This document shows positions 18,279 to 22,595 of a stretch of 49,918 bases of DNA, piece after piece. The number at the start of each line of letters is the position of its first letter. The first letter of the stretch is position 1. The stretch spans positions 11,719-61,636 of the forward strand of contig JAGRGG010000081.1 of the NCBI GenBank assembly GCA_020445645.1, in the 5' to 3' direction. Origin of the DNA: Geminicoccaceae bacterium (GTDB lineage: Bacteria; Pseudomonadota; Alphaproteobacteria; Geminicoccales; Geminicoccaceae). Below the pieces are notes generated by a model. The model was not told the origin of the DNA. It saw nothing but the letters and a program-made list of their open reading frames with translations, and made no database searches. The position numbers were made by a program, and so were the translations under genes.

Positions 18279-19622
18279 ATGCCCCCCCTCGGCCGCTCGT
18301 TCCGCCTCGCCCTGCCGCTCATCCTCTCGAACCTCACCGTGCCGCTCATGGGCATGGTCGACACGGCGGTGGTCGGTCGGATCCCGGGGGCGCACAACCT
18401 CGCCGCCGTGGCGCTCGGCGCCGCCGTCATGAACTTGGTCGTCTGGGGGTTCGGCTTCCTGCGCACCGCGACCGGCGGGCTCGCGGCGCAGGCCTTCGGC
18501 GCCGGGGACGCCCGCACCCTGAAGGCCATCCTCCTGCGCTCCGGCCTCGTGGCGGTCGCGGCGACGGCGTTCGTCTTCCTCCTGGCCCCCTTCGCCTTCC
18601 CGGCGAGCGCCGCCCTGTTCGCGGCCGAAGGGGAACTGCGCGCGACGCTCCACGCCTATCTGGTCGTTCGCATCCTGGGAACGCCCTTCATCCTGGGGGG
18701 ACAGGTGCTGACCGGCTGGTTCCTCGGCCGGCAGGAGACGGGGGTGCCGCTCCTCGTCATGCTGACGGCCAACCTGCTCAACGCCGCCCTCGACGTGGTC
18801 CTCGTGCTCGGGCTCGGCTACGGCGTCGCGGGTGCCGCGGCGGCGACGGTCGCGGGCGACGCGGCCGGCCTCGCGGTGGCCCTCCTCGTCCTCCGCCGCC
18901 GCTGGCCCACCCTGCGCGCGGCCTCGCCCGCCCTCCGGGAGGTGGCGGCGAAGGACCCGCTCCTGCGGCTGCTCGCGCTCGGGCGCGACATCTTCCTGCG
19001 CACGATGGCGCTCCAGGGCGCCTTCCTCGCCTTCGCGGCGCTGGCGGCGCGGGAGGGTGCCCTCGTCGTCGCGGCGAACGCCGTGCTCCTCAACTTCTTC
19101 ACCCTCCAGGCGCACGGGCTCGACGGCTTCGCCGACGCCGCCGAGGCGACGGCGGGGCGGGCGGTCGGCGGGGGCAGGCTCTCGGACCTGCACGACGCCG
19201 TCAAGGCCGCCTTCGTCAACGCCGGCCTCCTCGCCGCTCTTCTGTCGCTCTCGTTCTGGGCCTTCGGGGAAGCGATCGTGGCCTTGCTCACCACGCTCCC
19301 CGAGGTGCGGGCCGAGGCCGGGCGCTACCTCGGCTTCGTCGCCCTGCTGCCGCCCCTGTCGGTCGCGGCCTTCGTCTGGGACGGGGTCTTCTTCGGCGCC
19401 ACGCGGGGAAGGGAGATCCGGAACGCGATGGGGCTCGCCTTCGCCGCCTTCCTCCCCCTCGCCTTCCTCCTTCGCCCCTTCGGCAACGCGGGCCTTTGGA
19501 CGGCGCTCCTCGCCTTCCTCGTCCTGCGGGGATTCCTCCTCACCTTCCTTTACCGGCGGGCGGGCTGGGGGGCGGGGTTCATGCCCGAAAAAACCGCCGC
19601 CGCGACGGCAACAACTCCTTGA
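18279..19622 (+). CDS. MATE family efflux transporter (DinF-like)
   Basis: 447-residue inner-membrane antiporter with 12 hydrophobic segments. It opens with RLALPLILSNLTVPLMGMVDTAVVG (split family motif LPLILSNLTVPLMGMVDTAV at about 9-28), followed by FLRTATGGLAAQAFGAGD; the second half repeats the pattern (GFADAAEATAGRAVGGG). The length and NLTVPLMGMVDTAV opening fit the DinF branch. It exports drugs or metabolites using Na+ or H+; the substrate is unknown. Its TGA stop falls inside the -35 hexamer of the presumed heat-shock promoter of the next gene. Confidence 0.9.
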   Translation: MPPLGRSFRLALPLILSNLTVPLMGMVDTAVVGRIPGAHNLAAVALGAAVMNLVVWGFGFLRTATGGLAAQAFGAGDARTLKAILLRSGLVAVAATAFVFLLAPFAFPASAALFAAEGELRATLHAYLVVRILGTPFILGGQVLTGWFLGRQETGVPLLVMLTANLLNAALDVVLVLGLGYGVAGAAAATVAGDAAGLAVALLVLRRRWPTLRAASPALREVAAKDPLLRLLALGRDIFLRTMALQGAFLAFAALAAREGALVVAANAVLLNFFTLQAHGLDGFADAAEATAGRAVGGGRLSDLHDAVKAAFVNAGLLAALLSLSFWAFGEAIVALLTTLPEVRAEAGRYLGFVALLPPLSVAAFVWDGVFFGATRGREIRNAMGLAFAAFLPLAFLLRPFGNAGLWTALLAFLVLRGFLLTFLYRRAGWGAGFMPEKTAAATATTP

Positions 19623-19645
19623 ACGCGTGAGGACAATCACCACAT
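19618..19645 (+). promoter_or_regulatory. Candidate sigma-32 (RpoH) promoter of the hsp20 gene
   Basis: CTTGAA at 19618-19623 and CCACAT at 19640-19645, 16 bases apart. The -35 is a perfect heat-shock hexamer and the -10 is a reasonable alphaproteobacterial match. It overlaps the stop codon of the MATE gene and would give a leader of about 100 bases containing the ROSE-like structure. Confidence 0.5.
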
Positions 19646-19646
19646 G

Positions 19647-19753
19647 GACGGTCGCGGGCGCTTCGGGTCCGCACCGTCGAAACCAGGGGGTCCGGCCCGT
19701 CTGAACGAGGGACGGCCCCCGACCAGAAGTCGCTCAAGAGAGGACTGACAGCC
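19647..19753 (+). promoter_or_regulatory. ROSE-like RNA thermometer in the hsp20 leader
   Basis: The leader folds into successive hairpins: 19647-19678 (GACGGT...ACCGTC plus GCGG/CCGC), an imperfect one at about 19694-19717 (GGCCCGTC/GACGGCC), and the decisive last one. In it AGTC-G-CT (19728-19734) pairs with AGGACT (19741-19746) around loop CAAGAG, leaving a single bulged G. The TCGCT/AGGA pairing is the ROSE signature (UYGCU against the Shine-Dalgarno), so AGGA (19741-19744), 9 bases before the ATG, is hidden at low temperature. Confidence 0.65.
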
Positions 19754-20242: not shown

Positions 20243-20304
20243 CGAACGGCGGCCTTTCGCCGTTCGATGGAGGCGAGGGGGGCGCCGCAAGGCGCCCCCT
20301 TTTC
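20243..20304. terminator. Two hairpins including a canonical intrinsic terminator
   Basis: First stem CGAACGGCG/CGCCGTTCG (20243-20251 with 20258-20266). The second is GGGGGCGCC-GCAA-GGCGCCCCC (20278-20299) followed by TTTT, the most textbook rho-independent terminator in the window. It ends hsp20 and lies before the convergent GGDEF-EAL stop. Confidence 0.85.
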
Positions 20305-20321: not shown

Positions 20322-22595
20322 TCAGGCGTCGTTCGGGACGGGTGAGCGTTGGCCCCGCAGCCGTCGCTCGATGTCCTCGGGCGGCATCGGCCGGCCGTAG
20401 AGGTAGCCTTGCGCCTCGTCGCACCCGTGCAGGCGCAGGAAGCCTGCTTGGTCCTCGTCCTCGATCCCCTCGGCGATCACCTGGAGGCCGAGGCTCTTGC
20501 CGAGCCCGACGACCGAACGGGCGATCGTGCCTCCGTCGGCCTTCCCGCCGATGTCGGCGATGAAGGAGCGGTCGATCTTGATCCGGTCGATCGGGAAACG
20601 CCGCAGGTGGCTGAGGGACGCGAAGCCCGTGCCGAAGTCGTCGAAGGCGACGCCGATCCCGAGCCGGCGCAGGCGGCGCAGCGGCTCGATGATCTGCGAC
20701 TCGTGCTTGAGCAGGATGTTCTCGGTGATCTCGAGCTCCAGGCGCTCGGGGGGCAGGCCGGTCTCGACGAGGATCCGCTCGACCTGGGACGCGAGCCCGC
20801 CCGAATGGAACTGGGCCGCCGACAGGTTGACGCCCACGCGCAAGGGCGGCAGGCCGGCGTCGAGCCAAGCCCGCGCCTGAAGGCAGGCGGCGCGCAGCAC
20901 CCAGCTTCCCGCCTGCGCCGCGAGGCTGCTCTCCTCCAGGGCCGGCAGGAACGCGCCGGGCGACAGGAGCCCGCGCTCGGGATGGTTCCAGCGCAAGAGG
21001 GCCTCGACGCCGACGACGGCACCGTCGTCCAGGCGTACCTGCGGCTGGTAGTGGAGCAGGAACTCTTCCTCGGCCACGGCGCGGCGCAGCTCGAGGTCGA
21101 GCCGGCGGCGGGCCTCGACCGCGACGCGGAGGTTGGGGTCGAAGAACTGGTAGCGGCCGCGCCCCTCCTTCTTGGCGCGGTAGAGCGCCAGATCGGCGTT
21201 CGCCATCAGCGTGTCCACGGCGTCGCCGTCGTGCGGGCACAGGGCCACGCCGACGCTGACCCCGACGTGGACCCTTCGCCCTTCGAGGATGAACGGTTCG
21301 CCCAGCGCCACGATCAGCTTGGCGGCGACGGCGGCCGCCGTGTCCGCGCCCTCGAGGCCGTCGAGCAGGACGGCGAACTCGTCGCCGCCGATGCGCGCGA
21401 CCACGTCGCGCTCGCGCACGCCGCCCCGCAGCCGCCCCGCCGCCTCGGCGAGCAGGGCGTCGCCCGCCGCGTGGCCGAGGCTGTCGTTCACGTTCTTGAA
21501 GTGGTCGAGGTCGACGAGCAGGAGCGCGCTGGATCGGGCGTGGCGCGTCGCGGCCTCGACCGTGCGGCGCAGCGCGCGGCGGAGGTGCTCCCGGTTGGCG
21601 AGGCCGGTGAGGGTATCGTAGTGCGCGAGGTGCAGGAGGCGGGCTTCCGCCGCCTTGCGCTCGGTGATGTCGCGGATGATGGCGCCGAAGCCGGCCTTCC
21701 CCCCCTCCCGCCACGTCGAGAGCGAGATCTCGGCCTGGAACGCGCGGCCGTCGCGGCCCAAGGCTTCGAGTTCGAGCGTGCGCCCGACCGCCGGCACGGG
21801 CTCGCCGGCGACGGCGCGGGCGAAGCCGGCCTCGTGGCGCCCCCGCTTCGCCTCGGGCACCAGCATCGCCAAGGGGCGTCCGACCGCGTCGCCGGCCGCG
21901 TAGCCGAACAGGGCCTCGGCGGCGGCGTTCCAGGAGGTGATGCGCCCGTCCGAATCGGCGCAGACGATGGCGTCGGGCGAGGTCGCGGTGATGCGCTCGA
22001 AGCGCTCCTGGCCCGCCCGGTGCGCCGCCGTCGTCCGCCGCAGCTCGATCCGGTCGACGACCGCCCTGGCCAAGGCGGCGAGCAGGCGCTCCTCCTCGGG
22101 GTCGATTCCCTCCGGGCGTGCCTCGAAATCGTGGACGCACAGGGCGCCGAGGCGGTGGCCGGAGGGCGCGGTGAGCGGGGCGCCGGCGTAGAAGCGGACG
22201 TTCAGCGGCCCCGCCACGATCGGGTTGGCGCTAAAGCGCGGGTCGAGGCGTGCGTCGGGCACCACCATGACCGGCGCCTCGCGGAGGATCGCGTGGGTGC
22301 AGAACGAGACCTCGCGCGAGACCTCGGGGATGTCGGTCCCGACCTTGGCCTTGAACCACTGCCGCTCGTCCTCGATCAGCGAGATGAGCGCGACGGGTGC
22401 CCGGAGCAGCTTGGACGCGAGGAGGACGAGGTGGTCGAAGTCCTCCTCCTGCGGCGTGTCGAGGATGTCGTAGCGGCGCAGTTCCGCGAGCCGGCCCGCC
22501 TCGTCGGCCGGAAGGGGGTAGGGTCTCGCGGTGCTCTGGGTCACGCCGGGCATCGTCCGCCTGATGGTCTGGGCAGAGTATGGCCTACGCTTCAT
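20322..22595 (-). CDS. GAF-PAS-GGDEF-EAL cyclic-di-GMP protein
   Basis: 757 residues, cytoplasmic, no membrane segment. Order: GAF (about 45-190), PAS (about 200-315), GGDEF (about 320-485), EAL (about 500-745). Both catalytic parts look intact: GGDEF at 403-407 with an RxxD inhibitory site (RERD, 394-397) five residues before it, EAL at 531-533, and DDFGTG plus IAEGIED later. It may therefore both make and degrade c-di-GMP, governed by the GAF/PAS input, whose ligand is unknown. ATG 22595 or the internal ATG 22553 could be the start; neither has a strong ribosome site. It is divergent from puuD. Confidence 0.9.
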   Translation of the reverse strand: MKRRPYSAQTIRRTMPGVTQSTARPYPLPADEAGRLAELRRYDILDTPQEEDFDHLVLLASKLLRAPVALISLIEDERQWFKAKVGTDIPEVSREVSFCTHAILREAPVMVVPDARLDPRFSANPIVAGPLNVRFYAGAPLTAPSGHRLGALCVHDFEARPEGIDPEEERLLAALARAVVDRIELRRTTAAHRAGQERFERITATSPDAIVCADSDGRITSWNAAAEALFGYAAGDAVGRPLAMLVPEAKRGRHEAGFARAVAGEPVPAVGRTLELEALGRDGRAFQAEISLSTWREGGKAGFGAIIRDITERKAAEARLLHLAHYDTLTGLANREHLRRALRRTVEAATRHARSSALLLVDLDHFKNVNDSLGHAAGDALLAEAAGRLRGGVRERDVVARIGGDEFAVLLDGLEGADTAAAVAAKLIVALGEPFILEGRRVHVGVSVGVALCPHDGDAVDTLMANADLALYRAKKEGRGRYQFFDPNLRVAVEARRRLDLELRRAVAEEEFLLHYQPQVRLDDGAVVGVEALLRWNHPERGLLSPGAFLPALEESSLAAQAGSWVLRAACLQARAWLDAGLPPLRVGVNLSAAQFHSGGLASQVERILVETGLPPERLELEITENILLKHESQIIEPLRRLRRLGIGVAFDDFGTGFASLSHLRRFPIDRIKIDRSFIADIGGKADGGTIARSVVGLGKSLGLQVIAEGIEDEDQAGFLRLHGCDEAQGYLYGRPMPPEDIERRLRGQRSPVPNDA

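Follow-up and report, generated by a model that had tools for sequence, protein, structure and literature searches.

RpoH-type promoter and probable ROSE-type RNA thermometer in the leader of an hsp20 gene from Geminicoccaceae

The gene considered here encodes an IbpA-type small heat-shock protein (Hsp20) and lies in a window of 49,918 nucleotides, which is the whole stretch of DNA that was analysed from a Geminicoccaceae bacterium. The best explanation of the region upstream of this gene, and one that we hold with high confidence, is a heat-shock control cassette in which an RpoH promoter is followed by a ROSE-type RNA thermometer. The presence of a ROSE-type thermometer in the hsp20 leader is well supported by sequence comparison and covariation. 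Its melting, the control of translation, the use of RpoH and the position of the start site are read by analogy with known ROSE elements.

In the proposed mechanism, RpoH holoenzyme would transcribe from CTTGAA-N15-ACCACAT once heat or misfolded protein raises RpoH, and the mRNA would start at about 19652-19654, which would place hairpin I at its 5' end. Hairpin III would, at moderate temperature, keep the ribosome away by pairing AGUC-[G]-CU with AGGACU, in which the Shine-Dalgarno (SD) sequence lies. A short, weakly paired stem and the bulged G would make hairpin III heat-labile, and translation of Hsp20 would go up on heat shock. The probable part of hairpin I is to cap or stabilise the mRNA leader, or to guide its folding.

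Promoter, hairpins and neighbouring genes

The features of the locus are collected in Table 1. The upstream gene encodes a MATE-family transporter, and its stop codon (TGA, 19620-19622) falls within the -35 element, the same overlap that an earlier note on this DNA had described. The tie between the MATE gene and the heat-shock unit is probably just positional. On the other side, the putative terminator suggests that hsp20 is transcribed as a single gene; a gene for a PAS-GGDEF-EAL cyclic-di-GMP protein (window 20322-22595, minus strand) converges on it. The best NCBIfam model for the window protein is IbpA, with a score of 160 bits that is under that model's cut-off.

Table 1. Features of the hsp20 locus (window positions)
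Feature	Position	Strand	Basis
MATE-family transporter gene (DinF-like)	18279..19622	+	Pfam MatE 1e-32; NCBIfam matE 8e-66
-35 element CTTGAA of RpoH (sigma-32)-type promoter	19618..19623	+	Sequence; same element in same place in relatives
-10 element ACCACAT, 15 bases past the -35	19639..19645	+	Sequence; alignment of relatives; model R1
Hairpin I core, GCGGGC-[G19660]-C-UUCG-G-GUCCGC, with bulged G	19654..19672	+	Fold; R1; covariation in 30 relatives
Hairpin II (GGGGGUCCGGCCC...CCCCC)	19686..19720	+	Fold; variable or absent in relatives
Hairpin III, AGUC-[bulged G19732]-CU / CAAGAG loop / AGGACU, ROSE-type UCGCU anti-SD	19728..19746	+	Sequence; fold; relatives
Shine-Dalgarno AGGA	19741..19744	+	Sequence; nine bases ahead of ATG 19754
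hsp20 gene, IbpA-type small heat-shock protein, 157 aa	19754..20227	+	Pfam HSP20 1e-18
Putative intrinsic terminator, GC-rich inverted repeat then TTTT	20278..20303	+	By-eye reading, unscored

The published consensus for alphaproteobacterial RpoH1 promoters is CTTGAA-N15-16-CCTATAT (PMC4843759). The spacing in the window agrees with it, the -35 is perfect, and the -10 matches four of the seven consensus bases, or six of the seven in CCCACAT, a -10 form that the alignment shows to be common among relatives. A search for CTTGAA-N11-17-CCNNAT returned a single occurrence in the window, namely this promoter, where 0.13 would be expected. An RpoH gene is also present in the genome, its product scoring 376 bits where the cut-off is 323. 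Taken together, the promoter sequence, its conservation in relatives and the rpoH gene favour the RpoH promoter that the earlier note had proposed.

The genome in fact holds two RpoH-like sigma factors (G000:C227, L188, and G000:C230, L189), with the 376-bit one over the family cut-off and the other, at 275 bits, under it. This resembles the pattern in alphaproteobacteria that have paired RpoH1 and RpoH2. Elsewhere in the same genome, the groES leader (L190, about 1250-1500, contig C273) contains a CIRCE-like inverted repeat (GGCACTCCCTTCAACAGAGTGCTAA) with CTTGCA-N15-CCCTAAG upstream, which suggests that groESL may be under joint HrcA and RpoH control.

Folding the leader gives three consecutive hairpins (I, II and III), in line with the consecutive hairpins that the earlier note had described, at -52 kcal/mol; 7 of 200 shuffles were equally stable (z -2.0). 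ROSE elements comprise two to four hairpins over 60 to more than 100 nt, and the window leader has three, with the ATG about 100 nt past the inferred start. The stem of hairpin I can be extended to 19647-19678, given an early enough transcription start.

The terminal hairpin, with a lone bulged G opposite the SD, is just as the earlier note described it, base for base: A19728-U19746, G19729-C19745, U19730-A19744, C19731-G19743, C19733-G19742 and U19734-A19741 pair, and G19732 is left bulged. That is, the UCGCU at 19730-19734 pairs with the AGGA of the SD in the U(U/C)GCU fashion of ROSE elements, and it does so in the 5' leader of a small heat-shock gene. The short TCGCT/AGGA motif by itself is frequent by chance in a GC-rich genome. 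In the window, TCGCT-N3-9-AGGA was found three times against 3.3 expected, and genome-wide TCGCT-N4-8-GAGGA occurs 60 times against 40 for the reversed pattern. What goes beyond chance in these sequences is the place of the motif on the SD of hsp20 and its recurrence, with covarying arms, in relatives. Two further promising genomic matches to a ROSE-like pattern (C3 and C45) seem to fall within coding sequence and were set aside.

The leader among its relatives

The comparison drew on hsp20 relatives from public genomes and on 60 genomes related to that of the window. With the window leader and the leaders of its two paralogues, this gave 103 distinct leaders. Of these, 95 have the SD in a U(U/C)GCU-type hairpin with a bulged G, against 2.3% of dinucleotide shuffles; an alternative shuffle that spared the last 25 bases kept the hairpin in 55%, as it spared most of the hairpin itself. 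The outer pairs vary together across species (GUC/GAC, AUC/GAU, GGUU/AACC, GAUAUU/AAUAUC), with 45 double-change cells against 20.7 by shuffling and a covariation of 0.43 against 0.24. The SD hairpin is thus both conserved and covarying in related genes. The two paralogue leaders of the same genome (L002 and L003, contigs C125 and C55) are also ROSE-like, with GUUGUC-[G]-CU/AGGAUGAC in the one and the variant form UAUC-[G]-CC, preceding GAGGAUA, in the other. The protein behind the variant leader is without the equivalent of Arg93 of IbpA.

Hairpin I is likewise shared. In relatives it takes approximately the form CGGAU-[G]-CC-loop-GG-GUCCG, with one bulged G breaking the stem. Across 30 selected leaders all nine pairs form in every one, a figure inflated by the choice of leaders that have the stem, and five of the pairs have changes on both sides, which that choice did not force. 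The distance from the first base of the -35 to the bulged G is 42 nt in the window. Almost all the alphaproteobacterial leaders in which it was located have 41-47 nt, with a single case of 54, and those enterobacterial ibpA leaders that have hairpin I show 52-55 nt. Unlike this spacing, the distance to the start codon is widely variable among leaders. The fixed spacing argues that promoter and hairpin I are linked, and we infer that the mRNA begins at hairpin I or no more than a few bases away from it.

The sequences compared thus indicate that hairpin I is no arbitrary feature, being conserved and covarying, with its own bulged G and a fixed distance from the RpoH promoter. The earlier note had regarded the hairpins other than the last as different from those of known elements. 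This stands for hairpin II, which is variable, but not for hairpin I, which is the conserved 5' hairpin of the family. Two-hairpin leaders, in which about 55 nt separate the beginning of hairpin I from the ATG, occur in the window's family beside three-hairpin ones. Both kinds retain I and III, and hairpin II has apparently been acquired or lost repeatedly.

Two covariance models of our own were built from leaders picked for carrying the features, so pairing percentages in their alignments are inflated. R1 describes the promoter and hairpin I from 30 leaders of other genomes, with the window's genome excluded. On the window it gave one strong match (19618-19675, E 6.6e-7; next 1.9), and on the whole genome its best three matches were the leaders of the three hsp20 genes (E 5e-5, 8e-5 and 2e-4; next 0.68). 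This cross-species match, together with the recurrence and covariation of the SD hairpin, bears out the reading as RpoH promoter plus ROSE-type thermometer that had been put forward from the letters of the window.

Among 31 genomes of the same family, R1 matched in 29 at E<=0.05, and 43 of its 50 matches lie just upstream of hsp20. Three of the seven others precede hspQ, clpB and groES. These are classical RpoH targets, and their presence among the matches in relatives supports the reading of the promoter as RpoH-type. The remaining four lie before an ORF that by eye resembles an alpha/beta hydrolase (L185), apparently within coding sequence (L184), and far from any start (L180 and L183). The matching clpB leader of a relative (L181, G013:C23:595459-595527) has a GGAUGCC...GGGUUC-like hairpin, and hairpin I is possibly not restricted to hsp20. 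R2, the model of hairpin III, had its top window match at 19722-19752 (E 0.035); genome-wide it left the window site non-significant (rank 7, E 2.65), as the model is too short alone.

The earlier note had named the Rfam ROSE models as a check on the element, and here the expectation failed: the window leader was not matched by them, even at E<=10, and so did not reach the curated score of RF00435, RF01832 or RF02523. Run on the whole genome, RF00435 did not list the window leader among its matches; its best match was the paralogue leader on contig C125 (28.3 bits, under the cut-off), the only hsp20 leader listed. Clear enterobacterial ibpA leaders also fall under the ROSE_2 and ROSE_3 cut-offs. 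The hsp20 leader of one relative (L036, Crenalkalicoccus) clears the Rfam ROSE cut-off with 49.9 against 45 bits. The miss stems from narrow models, and an Rfam match is a criterion of detection that lies outside the biological definition of ROSE. Given the negative check, the case rests on the relatives, on our own covariance models and on L036 passing the cut-off. In addition, the Rfam consensus structures have a bulged G in the hairpin preceding the SD hairpin as well, and hairpin I therefore fits the ROSE architecture.

Rival readings of the leader

A GC-rich leader could carry CTTGAA and a weak hairpin by accident and be unregulated. The short motif is common, the Rfam result is negative and the whole-leader fold is just mildly stabler than shuffles; set against this are the cross-species R1 match, the ranking of the three hsp20 leaders at the top of the genome, the recurrence of the SD hairpin in the large majority of leaders and the nearly constant alphaproteobacterial spacing that the window shares. 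We strongly disfavour chance and consider it very improbable. Quite unlikely, in our judgement, is that the promoter is real and heat-induced while the hairpins merely fix a low, constant level of translation or protect the mRNA, with no sensing of temperature in the physiological range. The computed energies speak for it. For hairpin III alone, the SD accessibility computed with ViennaRNA is 0.006 at 25 °C and reaches just 0.016 at 42 °C, so that opening at 37-45 °C is not predicted, and for the whole leader the same program gives no rise in SD accessibility on heating. The outer stem is also short and GC-containing. Nearest-neighbour models handle the non-canonical pairs of ROSE elements poorly. 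Melting computed in this way looked little better for most of the relatives folded, which makes it a poor judge, yet one that gives no support. What tells against the absence of sensing is the weakness of hairpin III itself. Its energy of -7.2 kcal/mol lies inside the range of -4.1 to -7.6 reported for the hairpins of working ROSE-like thermometers in Pseudomonas (PMC3669281), and deleting the bulged G in silico takes it to -11.0 kcal/mol. Because removal of the bulge strengthens the hairpin, its conservation points to selection for weakness. In a ROSE-like element that has been tested, heat induction is weaker once the bulged G is deleted and is lost altogether when a stabilising change is added to the deletion (PMC11342760).

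The leader might also be chiefly a binding site for Hsp20 itself, perhaps at hairpin I, with the protein repressing its own synthesis until misfolded clients draw it away and melting playing a secondary part. E. coli IbpA sets the precedent: on binding the 5' UTR of its own mRNA it represses translation via Arg93 with Tyr34, both of which are conserved in alphaproteobacterial IbpAs (PMC10474464). The window protein retains an Arg and a Tyr that align with R93 and Y34, and hairpin I is strongly conserved and covarying, with a function in ROSE-like thermometers that is not fully understood (PMC3669281). On the other hand, the anti-SD hairpin and its bulged G are conserved as well, as a thermometer requires, the paralogue OWN3 has a ROSE-like leader yet lacks the Arg, and the literature consulted yielded no mapped alphaproteobacterial binding site. 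We regard self-repression as the chief role of the leader as unlikely, and the two mechanisms are compatible. A combined arrangement, in which hairpin I would be a second sensor that binds Hsp20 and the leader would read temperature through hairpin III and free chaperone through hairpin I, is a speculative extension by analogy that we would not expect to hold; the bulged G-CC/GG motif of hairpin I is conserved from alpha- to gammaproteobacteria. The RpoH promoter with a ROSE-type thermometer remains the reading that we prefer.

Significance and relation to known ROSE elements

By 2005, the ROSE elements reported from alpha- and gammaproteobacteria already numbered more than 40, according to a count cited in PMC4166951, and on this count a ROSE element in the window is a small surprise. 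Our literature search found no paper connecting Geminicoccaceae with RNA thermometers. The present comparison would add an uncultured alphaproteobacterial group of family rank, missed by the Rfam models, to the known range of ROSE thermometers. Small heat-shock leaders can be located genome-wide, with few other matches, by a covariance model that combines the promoter and hairpin I. Hairpin I, conserved and fixed in position, is the part that deserves specialist attention, and its function becomes easily testable.

With alphaproteobacterial ROSE (RF00435), the window leader shares the class of gene (small heat-shock), an RpoH-type promoter, several hairpins and a last hairpin in which U(U/C)GCU, leaving a bulged G, covers the SD; the first hairpin of the Rfam consensus also has a bulged G before CC. 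It differs in being undetected by the model, in the short C(UUCG)G top of hairpin I and in the sequence of hairpin II. The gammaproteobacterial ibpA/ibpB leaders of ROSE_2 and ROSE_3 (RF01832, RF02523) have the same anti-SD core, and the IbpA genes of the relatives are homologous. The ROSE_3 consensus includes a GAU-[G]-CC...GG-GUC hairpin as seen here. These models leave the window unscored, and the gammaproteobacterial ibpA hairpin stands further from the -35 than the alphaproteobacterial one, as the spacings above indicate. The short ROSE-like thermometers of Pseudomonas ibpA (PMC3669281) share a conserved GC-rich hairpin I and an SD hairpin of similar energy. They have two hairpins where the window has three, and the window's own family includes both short and long forms.
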